Shown piece after piece: positions 7,920-64,000 of a stretch of DNA of 64,000 nt. Each line of letters begins with the position of its first letter. The stretch's first letter is position 1. Source of the stretch: Selaginella tamariscina (Eukaryota; Streptophyta; Lycopodiopsida; Selaginellales; Selaginellaceae); assembly GCA_003024785.1 (NCBI GenBank), contig PUQB01000090.1, positions 558,001 to 622,000 of the forward strand, in the 5' to 3' direction. A program made the translations under genes and the position numbers. The notes under the pieces were generated by a model. It ran no database searches. It was not told the DNA's origin and was given only the letters and a program-made list of their open reading frames with translations.

Positions 7920-8880
7920 TAAAAAAAATGATTCATAAAAATTGGATTTTTGACAGGTGAATATGTTATAAACCTCTCAAATGCTATGATGTAAAAAGGA
8001 AAGCAAGCCATACTTTTTTAAGAATGAAAGATTAATTAAGCTTCATTAAAAGATTAATTAGTTAAGAAATGAAGAATGCACATATTTTAATGGTAGACAA
8101 CTCTCCTTAAAAGGCTCAACTCAACCAAAACATTGCTTGTATCCATTCAATCGCTTTCGACCCATATTCTAATATTAATACCATGGATAAACTAGTGAAC
8201 TACTTGGATACGTGCCTCAGAAAAAAGAATCTTGAAAACTTTTGTGAGTAATATCCACTATGTAAAACATACCCTAACACTTTTCTTTTTCATAATTTTG
8301 AATTTTATATATTAAAGAAGAGCAACCGGGTGCTCTATAATATTATTATTAAGGAATTTCATTTTTTAGATAAGCCTCTATGCACTCTTATTCTTATTAC
8401 AAATTACAAAGGATAACAACTCCAATTGCATTCATGAAAGTGTTAAGTGGTGGCAACAATATAAAGATATTGACTAAAATGATTCAATTAATTCGAAGAG
8501 TGATAACTTAAATAAAATGAGGAGATTTCTCTATATAGTTAAAGAGAAAATAATTATAAATAGATTAACAAATTAATTAGGAAATGATTTCATTTGTAAT
8601 TATGTTTGATAATAGTTTTTAATTATTGTAAAATATTTTTACAATGAAGAATAATACGAATATTCTAATACATTTTGGGAATATTCTTTACTAAGTAAGG
8701 TTAATGAAGGATTAATTTGTTAATTAATTAATAATTATGGCTTAATTATATATTTATTAAATAATTATATAAAAATTAAAACTTAAGTGTTAGTTAGTAA
8801 TTTATTTTATATTCCCATTTTCATGTATCAATTTTAAATTACAATGTGCATATAAGTAATTATTTCAATAAGGTAGTCAT
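7920..8880. other. AT-rich intergenic DNA
   Basis: I see no gene. From about 8560 the tract is almost only A and T. A segment near 8815 (TATTCCCATTTTCATGTATC) resembles the end of the small element at 671-886. Confidence 0.5.
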
Positions 8881-16230: not shown

Positions 16231-17170
16231 TTTTCTCATGAAAATGTTAAAGAAATGCAGATTTTTTTAGAGAGAGCGAACGAACCACGATTTAGCATCA
16301 GAATATAAGCTTTCAGGTTCGTTGGCTCTCTTTAGAAAATCTGTGCTTCTTCAATATTTTCATGAAAAAACTGCAGGTTTGGTCGTCGGAAAGGACGGAT
16401 ACGGAGAAGTGCAAGTTCTCGACGATCTCCACATTATCATTGGAACAAGACGACGTTGGGTTCGATCACGATATAGCATCAGAATATAAGCTTTCAGGCT
16501 GAATCTGACATCGTCTTGTTTCGATGATAATGTGGAAATTGGCTAGAACCTTACTTGCATGTGTCTCCACTGACTTAGGTTGCTCATCTTGTTGCTCCCC
16601 TCTAGCTCTCTTAAGTTCTAAGAGAACCTGCACTTCTTCATATCCGTCCTTTCGAGTCCGTCCTTTCGAAAGATAGACCAAACCTATAGTATTTCGCATG
16701 AAAATGTTGAAGAAATGCTGATTTTTCGAGAAAGAACGAACACAAACCTAAAAGCTTATATTCCGATGCTAAATCGTGCCGAACCTAACGTCATCTTGTT
16801 CATGTGATAATGTGGAGATCGTCGACTTCTCCATATCCGTCCTTTCCGATCGAGAGACATACCAAACCTATAGTTTTCGCATGAAAATGTTGAAGAAATA
16901 ATGATTTTTTGAGAGAGTGTGAACAAACCTGAGAACTTATATTCCGATGTTAAATCATTCCGAACCTAACATCGTTTTTGTTCAGATGATAATGTGGAGA
17001 TCGTCGACTTCTCCATATCCATCCTTTCCGATCGAGAGACAAACCAAACCTACAGTTTTCGCATGAAAATGTTGAAGAAATACTGATTTTTTGAGAGAGA
17101 GCAAACAAACCTGAGAGCTTATATTCCGATGCTAAATCGTGGCTGAACCTGACGTCGTCTTGTTCACGCC
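16230..17170 (+). repeat. Tandem repeat of about 182 bp with inverted copies
   Basis: The landmark 'gcatgaaaatgttgaagaaa' recurs at 16696, 16879 and 17061, giving periods of 183 and 182 bases. Each unit holds 'gcttatattccgatgctaaa' and 'gataatgtggagatcgtcga' or close variants. Upstream, 16240-16520 carries the complement of the first motif ('catcagaatataagcttt' at 16290 and 16479), so units lie in both orientations. A minus-strand frame at 16466-16699 looks coding (EEVQVLLELKRARGEQQDEQ) and may be an exon caught up in the repeat. Confidence 0.75.
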
Positions 17171-30904: not shown

Positions 30905-31291
30905 TAAAGGCTTGAACTCAAGAACAAGGCAAGAGCAAGAACAAGACAAGAACAAGGAACAAGACAAGAATGATCGTAGAATGACTGGTGTTGATAGTAA
31001 CTGATTGTACAAATTAGGTCGGAGCTTTTATACTCACAACTCCAAGCTAATCTGGTCATGAGTCTAATATGGTCATGAGCTAAAAATAGTGACCCTTATC
31101 CTTTAGGCATATCCTGTAGTATATCCTATAGGCATATCCTGTAGGATATCTGTAGGAATATCCTGTAGGCATATCCTGTAGGTATATCCTATAGGCATAT
31201 CCTGTAGGAATATCCTGCAGGCATATCCTGTAGGTATATCCTATAGGCATATCCTGTAACTCGTATCCTGTATCCTGTATCGGTCGTGACA
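30905..31291 (-). repeat. 3' LTR of element A with CCTGTA-based tandem array
   Basis: The minus-strand start is TGTCACGACCG at 31291. The part at about 31100-31280 consists of some 15 units of about 11-12 bases of the type TATCCTGTAGGC with A/G variants. The same array is present in the other LTR (36930-37100) with different unit counts. The outermost end near 30905 is less certain because it does not show a clear TG. Confidence 0.85.
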
Positions 31292-31329
31292 GCACCTCCT
31301 CCCTAAGGACGAGTTCCACGAGTCTTGGG

Positions 31330-34300
31330 ACCTGGTTTAGCAGGATAACGCCGATGGAAAGCAGCAACTTTGGAAGAAGCATGGAGTAAGTTGGATGCAG
31401 GTTCCCAAGTGCGATCGGTAGGCAAATAACCTTTCCAATCCACCAAGTATTGAAGTTGGCGGCGATGAAGACGAGAATCAAGGATGGCTGCAACTTCATA
31501 CTCAGGTTCACCGTCAATGACCACAGGAGGGGAGGAGAAGAAGCACGACCAAGAAGAGAAGAAGGATGATACGGCTCCAACAAAGAAGTGTGAAACACAG
31601 GATGAAGTTTCACCGTAGATGGTAACTCGAGTCGGAAAGCTACAGGATTGACCTCAGCCGCAATCCTGTAAGGGCCCAATCGTTGAAAATCCAACTTAGA
31701 AGAAGGCCTGTTGGTGCGAATATGCCGACGAAGAAGCCACACGAGATCACCAATCTTGTATGTAGGTGCCGGTTGACGATGAGCATCAGCATAATGCTTG
31801 TACCGTTCCTGTGCCTGCTGAAGATGAACCCGGAGATCCTCATGTACCTGACGAAGATGCTGGAGACGATCCTGTACTGCAGGAGCAGAAGAAGGAGAAG
31901 CAGGAGGAGCAAAGTCAAAACGTGGATGGTAGCCTGTAAGAGCAAAGAAAGGTGTCTGGCCTGTAGATGCGTGAACGGAGTTGTTGTAGGCAAACTCCGC
32001 CATTGGAAGAAGGTCCAACCAGTTGTCCTGTTGGTAACTGATGAAGCAGCGAAGATATTGCTCCAAGGTCTGAATCGTGCGTTCTGACTGCCCATCAGTT
32101 TGTGGATGGTATCCTGAAGAAAGGTCCGCTTTAACCTGTAGACTCCGGAGAAGTTCTCGCCAAAACTTGGACATGAATTGTGGGCCTCGATCAGAAACAA
32201 TGCTCTCAGGAAGACCATGATGTCGGAATACTTGCGGATCACCAACTCAGCAGTTGTCTGGCCTGTAGCAGTCTTGTGACATGGTAGGAAATGAGCTTGT
32301 TTGGTGAAACGGTCAACCACGACAAGAACTGCATCAAATCCACGAGAAGGAGGAAGATCTGTGAGGAAATCCATAGAAATGGATCTCCAAGGAGCAGAAG
32401 GAACAGGAAGAGGACGAAGAAGACCAGAGGGCGCGTGACGAGGCATCTTCGACCTATTGCAGGTGTCACAACTCCGTACAAACTTGTCCACAAAACCTCG
32501 CAACCCAGGCCACCAATAGTTGCGAGTCACCAACTCAACTGTCTTGGCCACACCAAAATGTCCTGTAGCCGGGGTATCATGACAATCCTGTACCACACGA
32601 GTCCTGCAAACACCAACAGGAACATACAGGAGACCTTCCCGATACAGGAGTCCGTCCTGTATGGTAAACAACTTGTAGTCTGTACGGGAACTGGAGGAAG
32701 AGGAACTTGCGATGTCAGGACTAATGTGTGAAAACACATTCCTTGCCAAGTCGTCTGTAGCCAACTGCAAACGGATGTCCTGTAGGAGTGTGGAATCTGC
32801 TGGAGCCTGATGAACTTGTAGTGCTGCAAGCCGAAGTCGATCAGGACCCAACAACACTTGCTTTTGACAGTCATATGCAGGATCGCCCGGGGTCGGTGCA
32901 AGGTAAGAGCGCCTAGACAATGCATCCGCCTTGCCATTTCGAAAACCAGGCCTGTAGATGATGACGAAATCAAAACGTGATAGGAACTCCGCCCACCTAG
33001 CCTGTCGCCGACTGAGAACTCGAGCCGTTTGAAAATACTCCAGGTTCTTGTGATCCGTAAGAACTTGTACAGGATGCGCAGCACCTTCCAGGAAATGCCG
33101 CCACTCCTCGAACGAATCCACAATGGCCTTGAGTTCCTTGTCATGAATCTCGTAATTGATCTCCGCCGAAAGGAACTTACGAGAGTGAAAAAGCTACAGG
33201 ATGAAGCAACTTATCTTCTCCAACTTGTGATAGAACAGATCCTACTGCAAAATCCGAGGCATCTGCTTCAACGAAGAAGGGACGAGAAGGATCAGGATGT
33301 GCTAAAATCGGAGCTGTCGTGAAGATGTTCTTGAGTGTTGTGAATGCATGTTCTGCCTTGTCGGACCAAGAGAACACTCCTGTGCGCTTGGTGAGTTCCG
33401 TGAGTGGAAGTACACGCTTGGAGAAGTCCTGTATGAAACGCCTGTAGAAGTTTGCAAAGCCAAGGAAACATTGTACATCTCGTACAGACTTGGGCCTCTC
33501 CCACTCCGCGATAGTCTTCACCTTGTGCATGTCCATGGAAACGCCAGCAGGAGAACGATGTAGCCCAAGAACTCTACAGTATCCCTGTCGAAGAAACACT
33601 TCTCCAACTTCGCATACAGGCCATGCTCGCGAAGCCTCTGTAAGACTAGTCGTACATGCTTGTCATGAGCCGCCTGGTCCTTGGAGAAAATCAAAATGTC
33701 ATCGAGGTAGATTACCACAAACTGGTCCAAGAAGTCACGAAAGATGTCGTTCACCATGTGTTGGAACACGGCTGGGGCATTGGTAAGTCCGAAAGGCATC
33801 ACCGTATACTCGAAGTGTCCATACCTTGTACGAAAGGCAGTCTTCCACTCATCGCCTGGACGAATCCGTACAAGATTGTAAGCCCCTCGTAAGTCAATCT
33901 TCGTGAACACTTTTGCTCCTTGCAGCCGATCGAGAAGTTCCGGGATCAATGGCAACGGGTACCGGTTCCGAATGGTGACTTGATTCAAACCTCTGTAGTC
34001 CACAACCAAACGTAAACTCCCATCTTTCTTCTTGACAAAGAAGATAGGTGCTCCTGCAGGGGACTTTGAGTGACGAATGAAGCCGGATGCCAAGTTTTCC
34101 TCGATGTACTGACGAAGAACCTCCAATTCTGTAGGTGACAGTGCATAAATCGGTCCGAACGGTGGAGTCTTTCCTTCCACAAGATCGATAGGACAGTCGT
34201 AGGACCTGTGAACAGGAAGAACTGCAGCCTTGTGCTTGTCAAAAACGTTCTGAAAGGAGTGATACTTGGATGGCAGGGAAGAAGGAGGAGAAGAAGAAGA

Positions 34301-35168
34301 ACAGGAGAAGGAGATTGAAAAACAGGGGAATCAGATACAGGAAAGGTAGAAGAGGACGTAGGAGTTACTTGGAAGGCAAAAAGATGAAAAGGAGCAGGAT
34401 CAGTGGCAAGTTCATGCATGGTAGTGGTAAGAACTCGAAGAGGAGAAGGAGGGAGCTGTGATTGAAAAAGAGGAAGGATCTTGGGGGGTGGAACAAAGAA
34501 AGTAATGAAAAGGCAGGATTGGGAGAAACATGTGTGGATGTTGACAAGTGTACAGGATTGGAAGAATCCTGTACAGAAGTCCGTGGATGCACAGGAGTGA
34601 GGAGAACTTGTGAGTGTGCTGACGAACCAATAGGAGGTGGATCCTGTCGAGGAGGAGTCTTCAACACTGATACAGGAACAGGCACGGTCAATCCTGTAGC
34701 TTGTACTGCCTCAGACACTAAGGATGTATTCTGCACACAGGAAGGTACAGGATTGGTCCTGGTTGCCGGAGAGGAAAACGTGAACGTCCTAGACCTCCAG
34801 TTGATCTGAGGATTTGCAACAACGAACCATGGCATGCCCAAAATGATGGGAGTCGACCGAGTCTTGATCAAGTTGAAGGAAATTGAACAGTTGAATGCGC
34901 CATGACTGCAAGAGAGAGGTTTGGTAGCATGGGTAACTGCGCCAGAAGCAATCAGACGACCATCGGCCACCTCTACAGGAACTGCACGCTTCAACTTCAC
35001 CATCGGAATGCCATGTTGAGTTGCAAAAGTGTCATCCATGAAGCATGCATTTGCACCAGTGTCTAACAGGGCAAACTCCTTGAGCTCTCGATTATTGAGA
35101 TGAATGTGTGGAAACTTGAGTGATGGAATGGTATGAGCAGCACCAATGGAGCCTGCACCTACGTCCAA
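31330..35168 (-). pseudogene. Protease-polymerase region of element A (PR, RT, RNase H, INT, chromodomain)
   Basis: In order on the minus strand there is an aspartic protease (FALLDTGANACFMDD near 35060) and reverse transcriptase ([19 protein letters not shown] near 33970 and YLDDILIFS near 33690). RNase H follows (FVEADASDFAVGSVLSQVG near 33240). Integrase carries an HHCC zinc finger ([15 protein letters not shown]...CDTCNRSK near 32480-32560) and core motifs ([20 protein letters not shown] near 32350, [20 protein letters not shown] near 32100). A C-terminal chromodomain lies at 31330-31524. The order PR-RT-RH-INT is that of Ty3/gypsy. A few interruptions divide the region. The final frame runs on through the polypurine tract into the LTR repeats, giving a short repetitive peptide tail. 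Confidence 0.9.
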
Positions 35169-35179
35169 CTTCGTGGCTC

Positions 35180-36157
35180 CTAAACGAAGTGAACATTGAA
35201 GTTTTCCGACTGAACTTCAGCTTCAACTTCACGCGTCTTGAACTTCCTGGCTTTAATAGGACATTCCGCCGCCTTGTGTCCTGCTTCACCACAATACAAA
35301 CATAGATTCTCACTGCGGCGACGTTGCTTCTCAGCAGCGGAAAGTGGGCCACGCTTGTATTTCTCAACCTCCATAGGAACTACTCCAGAAGGTGTCGCAG
35401 AAGTATGTACCACAGCTGCAGGATTGGTTTGCAGGAACTGCTGACGGGATTTTTCCTGACGACGCTCGAACAAGCGGTTGTCGCAGCGAACGGCCTGTTG
35501 CATGATCTCCGCTAATGTTTGGGCATCCGGTAACGAAAGGAGAAGGTCCTTCACATCATCCCTCAACCCAAAACGGAAGTGTTCAATCAATGCAGTCTCG
35601 TCCCATGGAATGTTCGTGCAAAGTTGCTGAAATTCGGATGCATAAACGGAAGCTGGTCGAGATCCTTGTGTGAGCTTTCGTAACTTCGTGCATGCGGAAC
35701 GGTACTTATCGGGATCTCCAAAGCAAGCTTCAAAGGCAGCCACGAAACCTTCAAAGTCTTCCATCAATGGGTCGTCACGTTCCAGCAAAGGGGCAACCCA
35801 AGCCCGTGGAGATCCAACTAGTAGGGATGCCAAAAGGCCAACCTTTTGTGCATCAGTCGAGTAGCGGCGTGGTTGCATGCGGATCAAAAGCCTAATCTGA
35901 TTCAGGAACCCTTGGAAATCGGCACGATTGCCATTGAACTTTTCTGGCATGCTAATCTTCGGCTCCGAAGAAGTGTTCGATGTAGAGGAAATCACGGATG
36001 CTTGAGAGAGAGCCTGTGCAGCAGCCTTGGAGGATGCATCAGCAGCTGCATGCGCCGCGTTGGTGGAACCTTGCAGATCTGTGACCACTTGGCGCAAAGT
36101 GGCTAGCTCATGAAGCAATATTTGGTGCTCGCGTTGAAATTGCTCAAAATCGGCCAT
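35180..36157 (-). CDS. gag region of element A
   Basis: A 325-codon frame starts MADFEQFQREHQILLHELAT. It contains a retrotransposon gag core (FQGFLNQIRLLIRMQP... through DVKDLLLSLPDAQTLAEIMQ, roughly residues 85-225) and a CCHC zinc knuckle (CLYCGEAGHKAAEC, about residues 285-300). It forms the capsid and nucleocapsid part of the element and lies just downstream of the 5' LTR and leader. Confidence 0.9.
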   Translation of the reverse strand: MADFEQFQREHQILLHELATLRQVVTDLQGSTNAAHAAADASSKAAAQALSQASVISSTSNTSSEPKISMPEKFNGNRADFQGFLNQIRLLIRMQPRRYSTDAQKVGLLASLLVGSPRAWVAPLLERDDPLMEDFEGFVAAFEACFGDPDKYRSACTKLRKLTQGSRPASVYASEFQQLCTNIPWDETALIEHFRFGLRDDVKDLLLSLPDAQTLAEIMQQAVRCDNRLFERRQEKSRQQFLQTNPAAVVHTSATPSGVVPMEVEKYKRGPLSAAEKQRRRSENLCLYCGEAGHKAAECPIKARKFKTREVEAEVQSENFNVHFV

Positions 36158-36295
36158 GATCTATGAAAGAAAAAAAAAAAGGAGAAAAACGAAGGAGAAG
36201 AATCAAGGAAAAAAAAGTAGCTGAAAATCGAAAAGCTATGAAAGAGTTACTATCAAACTGTCAAGCCACGACCAAGAGCAAGATAACAACAAGAA

Positions 36296-39599: not shown

Positions 39600-40184
<585 letters not shown>

Positions 40185-40967: not shown

Positions 40968-41899
40968 ATGTCAACTCTTTCGGCTTCTCATTTGAGTCTT
41001 AGAGTAGCTGGCAAAAACGCTCGAGATAGGCAAGCCAATTGGAGCCATGACGAGGTTATGACTTTGATCAGAGCGAAAACTACAAAGTTTGGCTACTACG
41101 ATGGCTGTGTTGATTGTGCGAAGATGGTTTCAGCTAAGGAGAAATGGGATAGGATCTCGGCTTCTCTACGTCAGCTCGGGTTTGAACGTGATGGTGACAA
41201 GTGCAAGACAAAGTGGGTGAACTTGACAACAACTTACAAAGCTGTCAAGGCTTATGATGCAACAACCAGATGCTCAAACTACTTCCTCATGACTCCCAAA
41301 GAGAGAACAGCTCAACATCTTGGCTTCATAGAGAAGGAGGCATTTGACGAACTCGATGACTTGCTCTCGGAGAAACCAAACATCACGCTAGCCAAGCTTC
41401 GAGATAGTAGTGTTGCAAGTGGTTCCAGTGGACAAGCTGCTAGTTCCGGTGGTGCATCTACGAGTGCAGCTACGGCATGGGTGGAGCAGCTACGGGTGCA
41501 GCTACAGCTGCGGGCGGTGCAACTACAGATGCAGCTATGTCTCCGAGCTCAGACCTAAGTGAAATAGTAGCTGAAGATCGGGTCCCTGGAGATCGTGTGC
41601 CTGGTTCTACAGGTCGGCTCAAGAGGAAGGCGAGAAAGAGCGATTCTTCATCTCAAACTGGTTTGGCTAAAGCTTTCAAGGAAGGGAACGTTTCATACTT
41701 GAAGATGTTGCAAGCAGCTGAGGAGAATAGGAGCAAACGCCATGCAGACTTGTTGGAGATGGAACGAACTCGACATGTCGAGTTCATCAGACTTGAAGCC
41801 GAACGGCTTGAGATGGAGCGAGCCTCTAACAGCCAGATGAACAACACTCTAGCTGCATTAGTAGCTGCAATTGCAAAGCAGGCATCTCATGAAAACTAG
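40968..41899 (+). pseudogene. Harbinger ORF1, Myb/SANT-like DNA-binding protein
   Basis: The first part (40968 to about 41475) contains a trihelix/Myb-SANT-like domain: WSHDEVMTLIRAKTTKFGYY, then KEKWDRISASLRQLGFERDG and CKTKWVNLTTTYKAV. In PIF/Harbinger elements this protein helps the transposase enter the nucleus and bind the ends. An Ala/Gly/Ser/Thr repeat tract follows, in which the frame shifts by one base near 41475. The second part (about 41477-41899) continues in the other frame with a basic patch (GRLKRKARK) and a long charged helix (EERNRSK-type, RHVEFIRLEAERLEMERA) likely to form a coiled coil. The slip lies in a simple-repeat tract and could be recent. Confidence 0.8.
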
Positions 41900-42232
41900 C
41901 TTGTAATGCTGTTATTAATAAGATCTTGTTTTGTTTCCAAGGTTCTTGAGTTAAACAATGGACATGCTCCAAGTGTTGCTTGTTATCCTTTTACTACGAC
42001 AATGGATCAACTTGCATAAACAGAAGCTTGAGTTTAGAAGAAGAATACAGAACGAGAGTAGGAAAAGGAAGCGTTTCCTACGAGAGATCACTGAAGTTGA
42101 TGAGACAACACAGGAACAAGTACTTCAATGATTTCACTCGAATGCTTTAGTTGTTTTAGCGGCTATGCCAGAGGTTCATCGGGTTTGGTGGGTTAAACCA
42201 CGGTCGACTGTTGGTTTGACAAGTTTGTCAAG

Positions 42233-43261
42233 ATGATTTACGACGATCATAGGTGGAAGAAGAACTTTGGCCTCAAGAAACAAACGTTCGACAACCTGGT
42301 ACTTCGTCTCAACAATGTTGTTGTGAAGCAAGATACACATTATAGCAGCGCTATTCCAGTTCGCATTCGACTTGCATGCACATTGTACAAGCTGAGACAT
42401 GGATCAAAGTACCTTTCCATCTCTGAGAGGTTCAGGATAGGTGAGAGTACAGCAATAGAGATTGTCAACGAGACGTGCAATGCTATCATCAACATTCTTG
42501 GTGAAGTTATCAAGTTTCCAGCTTCTGCTCAAGAGTTGAGAGTGATCATACAAGGTTTTCAAGACCTTACACAACTACGAAATGTAATGGAACTCAAATT
42601 GAAGTTGAAAAGCCTCGAGATCATGGTGAAGTTTACTACAAGCATCATCGTTATAGCGTTGCACTTCAGGCTGTCGTAGATAGTAAGAAAAGGTTTTTGG
42701 ACATCTGTTGTGGCTGGCCAGGATCCGTTCATGACGCTCGAGTTTGGAGGAACTCGAGTTTTTACCAGCTTCAAAGACCTGTTTTTGAGCTTCTCGGATA
42801 CAGCTTGAAGCCATATCTTCTCGGAGACAAAGGCTACCCTTGCAGCCTAGCGATTATGGTGCCTTTTCGACGGTCAACAAACCTTTCAGTCCTCAAGAAG
42901 TTCTTCAACAACGAGCTTTCAAAAGCTCGTCAGATCGTGGAGTGTAGTTTTGGACTTCTAAAAGGTATGAAAAAGCATTCAAACGTGAATTCTAACTGGT
43001 TTTTGTGCAGGAAAGTTCCAAATACTTGGCTCAAAGATCCGAATGCAACCTGACATTGTTCCTGATATTGTCTATGCTTGTTGTGTGCTACATAACTATC
43101 TCATTGATATTGGCGATGCAGATGTTGATGAAGAACTGCGCGAGTTAGATTTGCCGGAAGCTGAACCCATTGAAGAAGACGAGGATAGAGTACAACAGAA
43201 TGAACAAGGAGGAGATATTGTACGTGAAAAACTCCTCGAATACCTTGTAACTGCAGTGTGA
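42233..43261 (+). pseudogene. Harbinger DDE transposase, catalytically broken
   Basis: The N-terminal part (42233 to about 42555) holds the helix-turn-helix-like region with RLACTLYKLRHGSKYLSISE and RFRIGESTAIEIVNETC. From about 42565 another frame is used: NGTQIEVEKPRDHGEVYYKH, then DSKKRFLDICCGWPGSVHDA with the second catalytic Asp, then LLGDKGYPC and LSKARQIVECSFGLLKG with the catalytic Glu. The first catalytic Asp, normally in a G-A-I-D-G-T-H motif, is missing because a small deletion near 42580 removed it and changed frame. A further change of frame follows near 43020, after which 43043-43261 reads DIVYACCVLHNYLIDIGDAD and an acidic C-terminus normal for the family. Confidence 0.85.
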
Positions 43262-56813: not shown

Positions 56814-59800
56814 GGGGGGGGGGGGGGCATAAATTTAGCCATATATATATAAGATATACTCGGTACACATACATAAATATATAAGATATATTCAAGCGTG
56901 TGTATATACATGTGTAAGCTCTGCTGCTTCCATGGCTTTGAGAATATCCAATTTGGTTTTAGAGAACACTCACAAGAGAGAGAGAGAGAGGAGAGGAGAG
57001 GAGAGGAGAGAGAGAGAAAGAGTGAGAGACAGGCATACACTTAGCCATATATATAAAATATACTTTGTACACATACACAGATATATAAGATATACTCATG
57101 CATGTGTGTATACATATGTGTAGGCTCCGCTGCTTCTATGGCTTCGAGAATATCTAATTTGATTTTAAAGAACACTCATAAGAGAGAGAGAGGAGAGTAG
57201 AGAGAGGAGAGAGAGAGAGAGAGTGAGAGACAGGCATACACTCAGCCATATATATAAAATATACTTTGTACACATACACATAGATATATAAGATATACTC
57301 ATGCATGTGTGTATACATGTGTAAGCTCCGCTGCTTCTATGGCTTCGAGAATATCTAATTTGATTTTAAAGAACACTCATAGAGAGAGAGAGAGAAGAGA
57401 AGAGAGAGAGTTCTATATGAAATTTTAAAATCCTTAGTCAAAACATGCATGTTGATAAGTCAATTTGTTATCAAAATTCAAACAATATATTAGTCAAGTG
57501 TTTAAAAAATAATGTGAATTGAAGTTATGTAATATATATATATAGGCATTTAATAAATACACAGATGTGTGCAAGTATTAACAACAATAGTCATTAATTA
57601 TATTATTTCTATGTGTAATTGTTAATCCATATGGAATTTACACGTCATTTCTTTATTTCTCACATAATAAGTACGTTTGATGCATGCTTATTACATGATA
57701 GCATATTAATTTGATTTATATATATAGAATTTAATACATGTGCTATCAAATTTGATACATGTATTAATAGTTTTGATATTTAAATTTAATTTTAAAATAT
57801 TTAAATACATTTTAATGTATACAAATACACTTAGTAGTACAAATTCAAATACACTTAGTAAGTACATCAAGAGAGAGAGAGAAAGAGATGCATACACTCA
57901 GCTATATATAAGATATACTCGGTACACATACACACTGATATATAAGATATACTTATGGATGTGTATATACATATGTGTAGGCTTCTGCTGCTTCCATGGC
58001 TTCCATGACGGAGAATGTTTATAATTACCTTTGTCCATAGAATCAGTATGTCACGACTTTGATCCCAATGAATCGCACATTTATTGCTGTCTCATTATTG
58101 TTGGCACTGTTCCAGCTTCAAGTTGCAAGGCACTCATCTTGGCTTTGTATGTATCTGCAGCAAAAGCACATCAGAAATTGCTCAATGAACATTACAGACT
58201 AGTTACCTGCAAGGTTCACAATTCTATCCTCATTGATGCCAACATGGCAAATGAAACTTTGTTCTCAATCCCTAGGCTGTACTTGATACACTTGGTCCTT
58301 TGACATTCATGCTGATGAAGTTATGTACGCGGCTTCCACCCTAGATTTTCAGAACTTGGAAAATCTGCTTTGTTGTTTCGTGGTACCGAATGCCTTGCTT
58401 CTTGTGTGTCAAATGCTGGACAATATCTAGCAACAACTGCCAAACAGTTTCGTTGCCTTCAAATTTCCTGATGCATGAGCATTGATGATATCTTTGCAAA
58501 CTTGCCGACGTCCTTGTGAACAACAGACTCTCGCAAATTGTCATGCAGTGATCTACATCTCGCAGAGAGAGCCACATTTCTCAAACGTAGCCAAATATTG
58601 TCTCATCGCAAGATATTGTTATCTCTTGAAACTTTTCGACTCTTGTCTAGACGTTCATTGCTCGTCATGTAATCATTCCGCATGCCACGTAAGTTGCCTC
58701 TTTCGCCTCTTTGTAGTGTAGCCTTCGACAGTCTTCTCGCTCTGGCATGAAAATCAGAGAGCAGAGGTATATGTGCACACTTTGAACATTGAGTTCCTGA
58801 AAACAACAACCTCCCAGCTCGGCTGCTACACTCATTATGCCTAAAAGTTCCATGAACCTCTACTTCCTGGCCTGTATCGAGTACAAGTTTGCCTATATAA
58901 TTTGGTTCACTAAACCACATGTTTCCTGGATGACTATCCTGCAGCATTCCCCTCAAGTCCACCTCTACTATTCCATACTTGTGTCTCATCTGCCAAAAGC
59001 CATGACAGACAGTTCTACCACTCACTACATAATGAAACCATCGTCACTCCAAATGAAAGAAAGTCTACATTCACTTACTTGATGAATTGCCCTCTCCAAC
59101 CTCTCCAGACCTTTTTCCCGGCCTATTCCCTACATCTGAAACTACAAAGTTTTACTCCTAATTATTAATTTGTTACTAAAAGAAAATTATAAAGTGGTGT
59201 TTACCTGTGCAGAAGAATCCATGCAAGTTAGATTGTTTGTCTTTGTCAGAAGTTAGCTTCATCTTCTTTGGAGGATGCCCTAGCTGTCTTGGTGCTTCTA
59301 CACCTCGTTTGTGGCCCTTCGATGCTAAGTGGAACTTTAGGTTGTTCTCAAGGCTGCTTGTTTCAAATACGCAGATCAATTTGCCACAAGCTTTGCATTC
59401 AACTGCAATCGTTTTTTTGTCGTGAAATTCTGGATGTTAGGCTAATAAAGAGGGAACTCCAATCTTGTTTCGCTAGCAAACTTGCCCACCACTTCAGTCA
59501 TCAGTTGCTCTACTGACAAACGAGTCTCCGAACCTGTTCGAATTCTTGTATTACTACTGTTGCTACCTCGTGTGCCTCATTATCGTCATCAGATAGTTCC
59601 ATTGCAGATGAACATTCATTTTTCTTTAGGTTCTCTTCATATTTCCTTCCGAAGCAGTGTTTGTTGAAGAAGTTATAACAAGTATCTTTGAGTCCCTTCC
59701 CATATACCAAATCACATTCATGGCAATACACTCCAAAGACTAGCTGATCACCTCTGTCATAGGATATAAACTCACATTTGTCTGTGCGTCCCTATGCCCG

Positions 59801-60132
59801 AAATCTCAACAAATTTTTCCTCCAGGATTTCTTCCATTCATGAACAAGATGAGGATGAGCCTTCTTCGAGTGTAATCCTAAACGAACAATAGCATCATTG
59901 CTTGCCTCATTATTGCATTATTGTGCTGAGGAATAGAGTCGTCTGTAGAAGCAGTAGCACCATTGCCTTCAAGCCTCACAAGGATCTCATCATCCCAAAA
60001 GACATGTCGCTCTTGATTTTTTTGTACAAAAACGCATTTTTGACCCTGTAATGCTGGAATTTCATCTAGAGCAATCTCGTCCCTGACCTTATCAAATGTG
60101 TAGTTGCCAAAAACATGAACAAAACCTAGCAT
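54285..60132 (-). pseudogene. Transposase-like gene, multi-exon, decayed
   Basis: Minus-strand blocks read as one protein. Block 60132-59890 reads FDKVRDEIALDEIPALQGQK. Block 59731-59510 reads YCHECDLVYGKGLKDTCYNF. Block 59405-59215 is a C2H2-like finger (VECKACGKLICVFE...LKFHLASKGHKRG). Block 59025-58603 contains FSGTQCSKCAHIPLLSDFHA. Block 58577-58341 reads WQLLLDIVQHLTHKKQGIRY, and about 58310-58100 holds NFISMNVKGPSVS and YKAKMSALQLEAGTVPTIM. Block 56320-55997 reads SYDGDARRRKLMLQDM and HDQDFIHNGKKLINPLDSGS. Block 55520-55146 holds LSCHFTVHLIMCFQDF and RTRSDTCENFFSKLGAW. Blocks 54840-54658 (STLVSHLNGNPWLSKDRLTR) and 54524-54285 form the C-terminus. The pattern recalls large uncharacterised transposase-like proteins of invertebrates and algae that share DGDxRRR and RxxSDxCExFFS motifs; this is from memory and unverified. 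Several stops and frame changes indicate decay. Confidence 0.55.
56770..57420 (-). repeat. Tandem repeat of about 205 bp, three units plus a detached fourth
   Basis: Units are marked by 'gctgcttc(c/t)atggctt(t/c)gag' near 56924, 57129 and 57331 and by 'agatatactc(g/a)' motifs. A fourth partial unit lies at about 57865-58005. Each has a (GA)n run, which explains the many GAGA tracts here; a G15 run is at 56813-56827. On the minus strand each unit carries a short open segment of the type LDILEAIEAAE, so a mini-exon may have been multiplied along with its intron. Confidence 0.7.
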
Positions 60133-60345: not shown

Positions 60346-60983
60346 TTTTTTCCATTTCCTTTGCCATTTCTAAATGATTTTACATATACTTCTTTGAGTA
60401 TACTTGAGATTGATTGCATATCTTTTGGAGATAAAAATGTAATTTTTAACACCAAAAAATAAACTCCTATGCAAGCATATCTTTTGTGTCTATTAATGTC
60501 ATTATATTGATAATAGTCAACGGAGAAATAACCTGCATGTGACAAGTTGTGTTCATGAGCTGGCCTACCCAATCCATTCTACTTAGCTATGTGGTTTCAG
60601 AGTTTTTCATAAACAACACTCTTAACAAATGCCTTATTGTATTAGTCCTTGTGGACAAACATAACACTGGAATTCTAGATGATAACTTTATGAATTATGT
60701 GTGACAATCAACGGATCATTCTCAACTTATTGCTCACCTTATGAAACCACTCATAACAAAGTCCCTTCCTTAGCAAATAATACCATGTTTGCCTTCTAAC
60801 ATGCACCAAGGACCATGTGTGCATGGTATTAATGACAATATCCTTCATAAGATTCAAACCTTGCGTGTCACATAGGTCTAGTAAAATGGACTGCCCACAC
60901 AACCAAATGAACTTCTTACCACTTCTGCTTAAATGTGGAAGATGTTTTGATGTTATCAACCATACAATGTCGAGTCCCGACAA
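60346..60983 (-). pseudogene. Unrecognised coding relic abutting the transposon end
   Basis: Two minus-strand stretches look like protein: 60983-60708 (SGKKFIWLCGQSILLDLCDT, RRQTWYYLLRKGLCYEWFHK) and 60572 to about 60346 (PAHEHNLSHAGYFSVDYYQY, then KRYACIGVYFLVLKITFLSP). Stops and a frame change separate them. The relic ends where the putative transposon begins, so it may have been cut by it, although the frame stays open to 60300. It lies 200 bases downstream of the methyltransferase gene on the same strand. I do not know the family. Confidence 0.35.
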
Positions 60984-61188
60984 AAAGAGGGCTTCCGGGC
61001 TTCCGGGCTTGGACCCGGAATATTCTAAAGAATCTACCAGAATATTCTTAGAATATTCCTAAATATTCTTAGAATTTAGGATTTTGGCTCAGTCGGCAAT
61101 TAACAACAAAAAATATTTAATCATAGCCATGTTTATACTGTATTATTAAAGTTTTATTTCAACACCAAAGAGTACAATTCAACACTTG

Positions 61189-64000
61189 TCACTTCTTCTT
61201 ACGATTGAGCAATGCTGCAATTCGTGAACCACCAGTCCTACTTGACGTCGCTATTGGTTGGGTTGGGATTTCCTCTGGCTGGATGTTCTCTTTAATCCTG
61301 TTCATAGCAATTCTCCCGAGCTCAGGGTTCTTCTCAGTCCCAACAATGTTTCTCCCCAGCTCGATAGCTGCAAGCATTGAGGACCCCGTACCACTGCCTA
61401 TATCCCAGATAAGATCACCTGGCCGGGTGAGTCGTTCTATCACGAGCTGCATCAATCGAGTGCTCTTCGGTTGGTAGTCCATCCTGCATGTGAAGATAAT
61501 GGTAAATACTTAATTGTTGAAATGAAATGCCTACCATGTTCTTGGAACCGCTCAGGATTATCAACAAGAATTGTTGATGACAAACGCAGTGGATTATCGC
61601 GCAATCCTCTAGATGCATCTTGGAAGACAAGAAGGAGCAGGATGCTCTCCTGTTAAAACATCAAAATCATTAATGAACTTCATGAATAAAGAAAAAAGTA
61701 CCTTCATCTTGTTGCGGTAGCCCCAACCACGCCCTCTGTAGATGTAGTACGTTGCAGCAAGTTGAAGGTCCACCACACTTGCAGCTCGGACAACTTGATC
61801 CCAGGTGTTTGCTGCAGCAAACACAACCAACCAACCATTTGCAGCCATATGCATACCTGCAAACTGGAGTGCTTCATCGAACTTCACTGGATCAAGGTAG
61901 AGGTATGGCGTATCACTCGTTGTATTTCCTGGCAAGGTCCCATTTGGAAGGTCGAAGATCACCAAGTTGAAACCATATTCTCCCGCAATATGCTGGTAGC
62001 GAGTCTGGCTGTCAGCTGTATGGTACCTGGCCACCTGTGTCTGAACTTTTCTATAAGGAACCAGTCTAGCGTCAGGAACCTCCTCTTCCTTCTCATCCGT
62101 GAGCACGGCCTGTTGCATCTCCTCGATGTCATCAATCGCCAAGAAATTATCACCTCGAGTTGTAGCAAGTGAAGGGACGAATGTGACCAAGTCATCCTTG
62201 ATGTCCATGGTTCCCTGCGATGGTAGCACTTCAGATAAATTGAAGAAGGCAGCTGGATCGCGAGTAGTGGAGGTGCCAGCTACTGTATCTGAGGTCTTCT
62301 TTGACTGCTGCACAGGCTGACGCCGCTTTGCCTTGGCCTTTGTCTTCTTAATGAAGTCGACCTCTGCCGGATCCCATGAGATGCATGGGAGATCTTTTGA
62401 GTGTTCATTGTAGAGATCCTTCTCCCATGTTGGTGGTTGCCCAGGTGGATAATCAAGCCAGAACGGTACGTGTACACGCTCGAACTCTGTCAGGCCAGAT
62501 CTTGTCTTCGACCACATGTGTGGTGCTTCCATGTAATCTGACCAGAATACCATAGTCTGTGTGTGAGGCACCTTTCTCGCTGCGACATACCTGTAATGAA
62601 CATATAGTAGTGTCAGAATGTAACAATGTCAAGAAGATCATCCTTACCTCCAAATCATCCTTCTTGCTGTCTCTTCGTGTTCGAGGAACTCTTTCGGCTC
62701 TATGGAGTAAGTGAACTTCACACACTCATGGAATGGCTGGAACATCACGTTCTTGCATTTTACCCGCACTTCATCGCACCAAGTCGTGAAATCTGTAACC
62801 GGCCTGCTCCACTCGCCATCCTCGATGAGTCCCGTGAGAATCTGTACTGCCTCCTCTCTGATTGCCCGCCAATACAAATCGATAGTAAACCACCTTATCC
62901 ACTCCTTATCCTGAACACCCGGCAATCCAAGTGTCTCTTGCTCTCTCTTCAGATCGAGACGTACCATTTATTGAAGTACATGATTCTCGTCTCGTTTGGA
63001 ATTCTCGCCCTTGAAAGCGCGTACAGCTTTTCCAACCCCATCCATCTGCATTGTTTCCATGTGATTTGGGTCACCTTGTCGAACCACTCTTCACCCAATG
63101 CAGGATCGATGATGGCTAAGATCTTCATCATGCGCTTGTCATGCTTAATGTAGACCTGTTGTTGCTCCTGGTATTTGTTGCCTTTGGATGCCCTTGCAGC
63201 CTTCTCAAGATCATCCTCAATCTCACTCTGTAATTCACAGACGTAATCAACTAAGTGATATAAGTGTGAGACATGGTACCTCAAAAAAGATCTTTGCACA
63301 GATCAAATTCGGAAGTGGATGCCAAGCTTGTTGTCCAGTCGCGCTTTCCTTCCACTTTCTTATGTCATCTCGTTCCTTGTCACTGAGCCTGGCCAAGATC
63401 TTCGCTGTGCCCTCCTCACTGGTGCAACATGTCTTCACAGATAGCAGAAGATGTGGCAGTGTGGTTTGCACTGCCGTTGCGGAGGAACTGCATATTTGAA
63501 AAGCTCGAAGTTAGTTAATCCTATGATCTAGAGGTCACTATGTTTACCTATTAATTTGCTGAAACATTGTCACAAGCTGAAGATTATCCATGACCCCAGC
63601 ACGGATGAAGCCTGAACGCACTCTCACTGCCCACTGAATCTTATCTTCCGTGTCTTCTGTGTACAGCTTCTGAAGCACCTTTAGCCTGTGATTACCATCC
63701 CAACAGATGAACTTCTTCATCGAAAGCATTGGTGCCCATTGCCGGAACATGTCGGACTGAAGCTCCTCCTCAAAAGCCAAATGCTGAGCATACATCGCTT
63801 CATCGCTTCTCAATGCTGCCAGATCTGCATCTGTCATGGGGTCCCCAACTTGAAGGATGAACTGAGTGGTGTTGCGCAAATAACCAACTGCCTTCTTGAA
63901 ACTCCTAGTCAAAGATTCCAGATCCGCTGGATTGACTCTCCGCACCTGCTCATTTCCCAGAATTCGGCAAATAGGGACATCCGGTGCCTCTCCATATTCT
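61189..64000 (-). CDS. ParB-like domain fused to a beta-class DNA amino-methyltransferase-like domain (5' end off window)
   Basis: Six exons: beyond 64000 to 63548, 63487-63280, 63227-62648, 62590-61702, 61649-61535, 61483-61189. Exon 1 has VRRVNPADLESLTRSFKK and, further on, ICWDGNHRLKVLQKLY, matching the two conserved boxes of ParB-like domains (the second being GxHRxxx). A long helical middle part follows. Exon 4 has FNLVIFDLPNGTLPG, the position of the catalytic motif IV, then AANGWLVVFAAANTWDQVV and YIYRGRGWGYRNKMK. Exon 6 has PKSTRLMQLVIERLTRPGDL then IWDIGSGTGSS and NIVGTEKNPEL, the AdoMet site. Catalytic motif before AdoMet motif is the beta-class order of N6-adenine/N4-cytosine methyltransferases. 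Motif IV is DLPN instead of (D/S/N)PP(Y/F/W), so activity is doubtful. The protein ends in a basic LLNRKKK. Two places lose frame by one base, each in a GG that would fit as GGG (near 62957 and at the exon 5 donor, 61535). Confidence 0.7.

Follow-up and report, generated by a model that had tools for sequence, protein, structure and literature searches.

What does a plant element gain from a spliced gene that joins a ParB-like domain to a DNA amino-methyltransferase-like domain? This question is raised by the right end of a 64 kb stretch of Selaginella tamariscina DNA (G000:C1282:558001-622000, from a genome of 300.7 Mb), which was analysed at its full length and is here called the window (numbered 1 to 64000). 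The element concerned was found to consist of two divergent genes, one transposase-like and one encoding the ParB-like/methylase protein, with a tandem array of palindromes between them. The ParB-like/methylase gene is accordingly described here as an accessory gene of a transposon of about 8 kb, which is tentatively called Mutator-like. This composition suggests that a DNA parasite uses an enzyme of bacterial type, one that modifies DNA, to mark or shield itself.

The ParB-like/methylase gene is located on the minus strand, at the right end of the window. The original prediction, made from the sequence alone, had proposed six exons with GT-AG introns, and the splice model reproduced this structure with five GT-AG introns of 60, 52, 57, 52 and 51 bp. 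Every intron of the gene (window 61484-63547) is short, at 51-60 bp. The motifs quoted in that prediction were all present on the minus strand, with the ParB-type boxes RRVNPADLESLTRSF and WDGNHRLKVLQ toward the N-terminal side, both within the exon that spans 63999 to 63548 in reading direction, and with DLPN and DIGSGTGS toward the C-terminal side. In reading direction, the parts of the gene within the window are:

63548-64000, minus strand: exon 1, 3′ part, with the ParB-like core (profile-profile match to phage ParB after removal of an insert).
63280-63487, minus strand: exon 2, from the splice model.
62648-63227, minus strand: exon 3, conserved and without an assigned fold, with a private frame break near 62967 and under purifying selection between element families.
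61702-62590, minus strand: exon 4, the catalytic-motif half of the methylase with DLPN, which is also found in family B.
61535-61649, minus strand: exon 5, from a splice model shared with copy C571, with a private frame break at the exon end.
61192-61483, minus strand (stop codon at 61189-61191): exon 6, the S-adenosylmethionine-binding half of the methylase with DIGSGTGSS, matching PF01555 at E 7.5e-10.

Exon 1 extends past the window's right end onto locus L010, where the ATG is located at a distance of about 0.5 kb and where the N-terminal region appears charged and lysine-rich by eye. Two breaks interrupt the reading frame of the window copy: the first lies near 62967 in exon 3, the second where exons 5 and 6 meet. 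All eight other copies that span the first site agree there with the open copy C571. At the end of exon 5, six of ten other copies (C571 included) are C571-like, the remaining four show other variants, and the sequence of the window copy recurs in none. On this evidence the gene model is real, and both breaks are private to this copy or to its assembly. For the comparison of open frames 11 copies were used, two of which (C531 and C744) were covered only in part. Among the nine full-length copies C571 alone is open through all six exons (1015 residues), while the remaining eight have at least one break each, with breaks in common between C330 and C1258 and between C639 and C982.

The C-terminal part of the protein is, on the basis of profile matches, assigned to the beta-class N6_N4 amino-methyltransferases. 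The match of exon 6 to PF01555 (N6_N4_Mtase) reached 39.6 bits at a cut-off of 26.7, which bears out the family named in the original prediction, and it spans only profile positions 165-220 of 221. The best PHROG for this part was phrog_67, a DNA methyltransferase (E 1.6e-11). DLPN in exon 4 precedes DIGSGTG in exon 6, which is the permuted (beta) order that had been read from the sequence before, and both motif I (DIGSGTGSS) and DLPN are identical in the two element families, A and B, described below. In a profile-profile comparison of the methyltransferase alignment with phage fusions, only the motif I stretch was matched (E 0.006).

Exon 1 contains a divergent ParB-like core with an insert of about 43 residues between Box I and Box II. 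The ParB profile PF02195 matched neither family's exon 1 nor the related protein P0004 described below, and a first look for PF02195 through the whole genome gave no candidate, with 11 of 14 control genomes matching. Searches of the N-terminal part against Pfam, NCBIfam, PHROGs and PADLOC likewise gave no useful match. The alignment of the ParB-like exon was judged by hhalign against six phage proteins, three annotated as methylases and three as ParB-like, which had been picked by hand among 30 records listed of 289. With the insert kept, the comparison was weak, which tells against the assignment: E was 0.045 with two rows, 0.017 with three and 0.008 against the N-terminal 110 columns, where none of 150 shuffles reached the score of 21.7, the closest at 21.5 leaving a small margin. 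With the 43-column insert removed, the score rose to 30.5 (E 1.3e-4, hhalign probability 54%) and was reached by none of 150 column shuffles, with Box I in register and GNHR aligned on the phage GxxR of Box II. The borders of the cut were picked after sight of the sequence, and all 16 cut borders tried scored 25.0-32.7, compared with a null maximum of 18.0 (60 shuffles, 5 cuts each). AlphaFold2 predictions were of low confidence (pLDDT 43 and 45), and a PDB search with these weak models gave nothing at E 0.001. The ParB-like identity of the exon 1 core is thus supported by profile-profile comparison to phage ParB. Of the pairing proposed originally, the methylase half is upheld by PF01555 and the ParB-like half by the profile-profile test, while the expected match to PF02195 did not appear.

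The relatives of the protein that were found are few and short, too much so for a tree. A whole-protein search (residues 1-740) scored 7996 sequences, none of them a homologue at E up to 1e-3. The methyltransferase alignment found three short bacterial-type matches (E 1.3e-5 to 8.7e-4) among 8000 scored; in phage records the methyltransferase part had no match at E 1e-5. In viral contigs, one related locus among 78 pattern matches was obtained with the methyltransferase alignment, an ordinary-looking prophage methylase, and none among 114 with the ParB alignment. The single match of the ParB alignment at E up to 10, among 4723 candidates, was P0004, an exon-like protein of 178 aa on a contig of 1841 bp (E 5e-9, 26% identical), which keeps ...CR...N...R.V..., GY, FIL, FICWDGNHRL and IN. 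Its frame stops shortly past the point at which exon 1 ends, and this was taken to indicate a eukaryotic exon.

The mobile nature of the locus was established from its borders and copies. Alignments of the window copy to eight longer loci (L011-L018), with identities of about 97-99%, stop within 7 bases of each other at the 3′ border (8057-8063 when the contig end is reversed), and the exact border GACTC, obtained from the copy termini, corresponds to window position 60972. To the right the copy extends out of the window and is cut off by the end of its contig (G000:C1282:627028, L010), with about 40 bp missing up to the other terminus. The parts of the element outside the gene that lie in the window, together with the element as a whole, are:

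60972-64000, minus strand: left part of a family A DNA transposon copy, delimited by the alignment ends of eight longer loci.
60972-60997, no strand assigned: imperfect terminal inverted repeat GAGTCCCGACAAAAAGAGGGCTTC..., matching the other terminus GAGGATTGGCAAAAACCGGGCTTC at 17 of 26 positions.
61019-61075, no strand assigned: subterminal repeats of the AGAATATTCT type from the tandem repeat scan, with similar boxes at the 3′ end of family B.
61088-61099, minus strand: subterminal motif TTGCCGACTGAG, a half-site as in the central array, with CAGTCGGC at 61090.

The five complete copies measure 7.87-8.15 kb. The element begins with GAGGATTGGCAAAAAC... and ends with ...GTCGGGACTC (GAG...CTC). 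Target-site duplications matched at 9/9 positions in C993, 8/8 in C681, 8/8 in C982, 8/9 in C639 and 6/7 in C571, so that a duplication of 8-9 bp with at least 8 matching positions is present in four of the five complete copies; random host pairs reach 8/9 at a frequency of 0.001 per copy. Methylase exons number at least 150 in the genome, as all 150 that were scored, out of 739 candidates, passed the PF01555 cut-off, a count that takes families A and B together. Across six aligned copies 32 private substitutions in gap-free context were counted, compared with 436 private indel columns, which are unevenly distributed (6 to 163 per copy, with 60 indel columns and no substitution in the window copy). 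Most indels between copies are read as assembly error, with real decay possible in some copies. The family A element is a young, recently active, high-copy DNA transposon. A domesticated or mobile-element role had been guessed for the gene, and the number of exons, the borders and the target-site duplications decide for the mobile element and not for a single domesticated nuclear gene.

The superfamily of the element is less certain. Mutator-like transposons have target-site duplications of about 9 bp and terminal inverted repeats, and the duplications and the 17/26 inverted repeat found here are of this type. The pieces of the transposase-like protein carry ...WVVLDHTYR... and ...MSDESGAIWLALRQVF...CLFH..., and the C-terminal end is a weak SWIM finger (E 0.0013, 18.6 bits, below the Pfam cut-off of 19.6). 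A SWIM finger together with D...CX2H is presumably a Mutator-like signature; the candidate D...CX2H, MSDESGAIWLALRQVF...CLFH, was recognised by eye only, in the transposase-like gene and also in that of family B. The N-terminal part of the protein is cysteine/histidine-rich by eye, with weak Fer4 matches only in Pfam. The label is not confirmed by sequence profiles. The MULE transposase profile PF10551 had no match in the transposase pieces, and none of its 113 genome rows, from 150 candidates scored, lay inside the element copies examined. Furthermore, 8 bp duplications are not confined to Mutator, as one of 8 bp is described for a Dileera element in the available text of PMC12730594. The label is kept tentative because the MULE model does not match here, though it matches other loci of the genome well. 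As a separate observation, the MULE-domain score (E 8e-25) is the same at 16 places (G000, C447, C102 and others), whose open frames span 433-673 aa; these loci are a further Mutator-like family, conventional and probably young.

A second element family, B, was recognised at six loci (L001-L005 and L008). In the alignments made it is 57% identical to family A in the ParB-like exon and 60% in the methylase part. The transposase-like gene was found in three of the four family B stretches searched (C516, C1293 and C565, not in the C885 stretch), with identities to family A of 63-85% for the middle and C-terminal pieces and of 41-67% for the N-terminal ones. The divergent layout of the two genes is kept in C565 and C1293; in C516 a rearrangement has left pieces of the transposase and methylase genes on the same strand. 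Between the families, synonymous divergence (pS) was saturated at 0.69-0.94 and nonsynonymous divergence (pN) was 0.18-0.34 in 18 of 20 exon comparisons, and the other two, with pN of 0.44-0.45, fell in stretches read as frame-broken. Exon 6 is 69-78% identical, with pN of 0.18-0.21 in five rows. Saturated synonymous sites combined with low pN indicate that the ParB-like and methylase exons have long been under purifying selection. Families A and B are anciently separated, with both genes and the half-site kept in both.

Directly upstream of the methylase ATG, between the divergent genes, lie tandem units of 40 bp, each with a 22-bp palindrome, CCCAGTCGGCATGCCGACTGGG. In C571 it is unchanged in 11 of 11 units and the spacer is variable; these units were selected by the 14-bp centre, so that the unbiased count concerns the flanking 8 bases only. 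Exact 14-bp cores were present in all seven copies examined (11 in C571, 11 in C681, 10 in the window copy, 9 in C993, 8 in C639, 5 in C982 and 5 in C330) and absent from the flanks examined. The 20-bp core of the palindrome occurs 1130 times exactly in the genome, the reversed control not at all, and among 50 listed places, on eight contigs, six of the eight contigs have a methylase exon about 3.2-3.6 kb away. The half-site CAGTCGGC/GCCGACTG was counted 15-27 times per element copy in six copies, versus once in the roughly 65 kb of their flanks; CAGTCGGC is found twice in the 64 kb window, once at the element's own 3′ end. GCCGACTG recurs near the 3′ terminus, and the degenerate forms GCCGACT and GCCGACC are located near the 5′ terminus. 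In both families TTGCCGACTGAG lies about 115-125 bp before the 3′ end, including four of four family B copies, whose 3′ region is otherwise diverged. Family B repeats are longer (124-139 bp in three of three stretches scanned) and in C565 and C1293 lie upstream of the methylase gene with the half-site; L029 (C885) has two half-sites in the stretch examined, the tandem-repeat scan not covering this locus.

Other repeats were noted near the element ends. GAATATTC boxes are repeated near both ends of the element (window 61019-61075 and L010:4800-5028), and GAATATTCTAGAATATTC boxes were seen in one family B copy (C565). These boxes resemble heat-shock elements, which would agree with a transposon that responds to stress or with a hairpin at its end.

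In the reading preferred here, the ParB-like/methylase protein would be directed to the sites in the array and near the ends, and the predicted enzyme would methylate element DNA at an exocyclic amino group, either N6 of adenine or N4 of cytosine. Such a mark may keep the element expressed despite plant silencing by 5-methylcytosine (5mC), or it may flag the element for transposition. That the element marks itself and counters silencing by its own ParB-like/methylase protein is considered plausible, at somewhat short of an even chance. The fuller statement is more doubtful. In it, a ParB-like recognition protein fused to an amino-methylase and the parS-like array of palindromes would together be self-contained as a tagging system, putting N6-methyladenine or N4-methylcytosine (6mA/4mC) on the element so that it beats host silencing, and two or more families of ancient separation would have retained this system.

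Several results weigh against this reading. The usual catalytic motif IV is (D/N/S)PP(Y/F/W), and both families have DLPN instead, without the usual aromatic residue, so that catalysis is not assured. Subterminal and internal repeats are often bound by the transposase, which could equally bind the array. No helix-turn-helix (HTH) domain of the canonical ParB type was matched in the protein; according to the available text of PMC12704722, ParB-fold domains bind nucleotides, and the sequence-specific DNA contact of canonical ParB comes from a separate HTH. Escape from CpG decay was considered as proof of anti-silencing and was rejected, as it was not seen in the element copies: the observed/expected CpG ratio was 0.58-0.59 in five copies versus 0.63-0.70 in their own flanks, and 6 of 16 private C-to-T/G-to-A changes were at CpG. 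With a ratio no higher than that of the flanks and with these changes at CpG, escape from 5-methylcytosine is not visible.

Four alternatives to self-marking against silencing were weighed. An unlikely one, which nevertheless survives best, is that the protein regulates transposition and does not counter silencing, methylation at the subterminal and array sites timing or restricting the transposase, in the way that Dam methylation times or restricts Tn10 transposition. It would agree with the half-site near the 3′ end and the degenerate forms near the 5′ end besides the array, and with retention of the gene beside the transposase-like gene in family B, but most of the sites are in the central array and not at the ends. 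It is likewise improbable that only the transposase binds the array and the subterminal motifs and that the methylase modifies something else, for example element DNA at large or host DNA. The cysteine/histidine-rich N-terminal part of the transposase-like protein and the common binding of subterminal repeats by transposases favour this, whereas the array stands directly upstream of the methylase gene and its palindrome is kept perfect, neither of which is needed for end binding. Still less probable is a methylase that lacks catalytic activity or has a different substrate, the protein being a DNA- or nucleotide-binding scaffold; DLPN in both families would fit such a protein, as would the nucleotide-binding ParB-fold fusions reported in the available text of PMC12704722, but the strong conservation of the cofactor half (exon 6) is not needed by a dead enzyme. 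A lone domesticated host gene of ancient bacterial origin, to which splicing and the resemblance to phage fusions might point, has next to no probability in view of the high copy number, target-site duplications and near-identical copies, and it is refuted for the window copy by the element borders.

The rest of the window holds further repeats and genes. At 31080-36160 (minus strand) a Ty3/gypsy-type retrotransposon was identified from a gag match (PF03732, E 6e-13) and from reverse-transcriptase and integrase-like open reading frames (ORFs) seen by eye, and a 13-bp minisatellite (TATCCTGTAGGCA) occurs at both 31097 and 36923. An apparently single-exon ferredoxin ORF at 39600-40184 has a leader-like N-terminus (PF00111, E 4e-22; plastid-type by eye). 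It is followed at 40968-43053 by a PIF/Harbinger-like element with a Myb/SANT-like ORF (PF13837) and then a DDE_Tnp_4 ORF (PF13359, E 3e-28). Decayed-looking, cysteine/histidine-rich ORFs at 58600-60130 (minus strand), with one weak zf-C2HC5 match below the cut-off, are perhaps a zinc-finger transposon. Tandem arrays are located at 16666-17166 (units of about 182 bp) and 56826-57410 (units of about 201 bp).

The significance of the element lies in the combination of its parts. Anti-silencing by transposons is already known from VANC, which lowers DNA methylation; TET/JBP genes are carried by fungal transposons, and DNA amino-methylation in eukaryotes is a matter of debate. In a young plant transposon that has an N6/N4-type methylase of its own, together with a target-like array that is private and countable, it can be tested directly whether a selfish element writes 6mA or 4mC on itself and whether this mark beats 5mC silencing; if true, phage-type ParB-methylase fusions would be extended to eukaryotic transposons. 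Among the matches listed in the literature search, no plant transposon with such a gene was described in titles or abstract openings, and the subscription literature or Repbase may hold one. The main text of a paper on plant gene capture (PMC13317346), as available, contains neither methyltransferase nor ParB.

Four known systems can be set beside the element, each as described in the available text of the papers cited. The occurrence of ParB with N6/N4 methyltransferases on phages, stated in the original prediction, is documented: fusions of the ParB fold with an N6_N4 methylase are a phage and prophage architecture (PMC12704722). The tree of that study includes eukaryotic ParB-like domains, sulfiredoxin among them, and its main text has no word starting with "plant" or "transpos". 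The fusions share with the present protein both domains, carriage by mobile elements and the GxxR of Box II (GNHR here). They differ from it in that the gene described here is a spliced nuclear gene of about 1015 residues with an insert of about 43 residues within the ParB core, a long middle part that no Pfam profile matches, DLPN as motif IV and no match to the ParB profile. N4CMT of bdelloid rotifers (PMC8885841), stated there to have no eukaryotic homologues, is similarly a eukaryotic permuted N6_N4_MTase of bacterial origin with introns. Unlike the present enzyme, which the transposon owns, it is host-encoded, fused to a chromodomain and deposits 4mC at transposons for silencing. Fungal transposons with TET/JBP dioxygenases (PMC12730594) also carry a gene for a base-modifying enzyme that is thought to counter silencing, with a different enzyme class, different hosts and different transposase groups. 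The VANDAL elements of Arabidopsis, of the MuDR type, are DNA transposons with a gene for an accessory protein, VANC (PMC5735166, PMC13317346), which binds tandem motifs, and in their non-coding parts a short motif stands in tandem and evolves by repeat formation (PMC5735166). VANC is not described as a methylase or as ParB-like (PMC5735166), and it is set beside the present protein by description, not by sequence. As a functional analogue VANC would be the nearest, with the same end possibly reached here through bacterial-type base modification.

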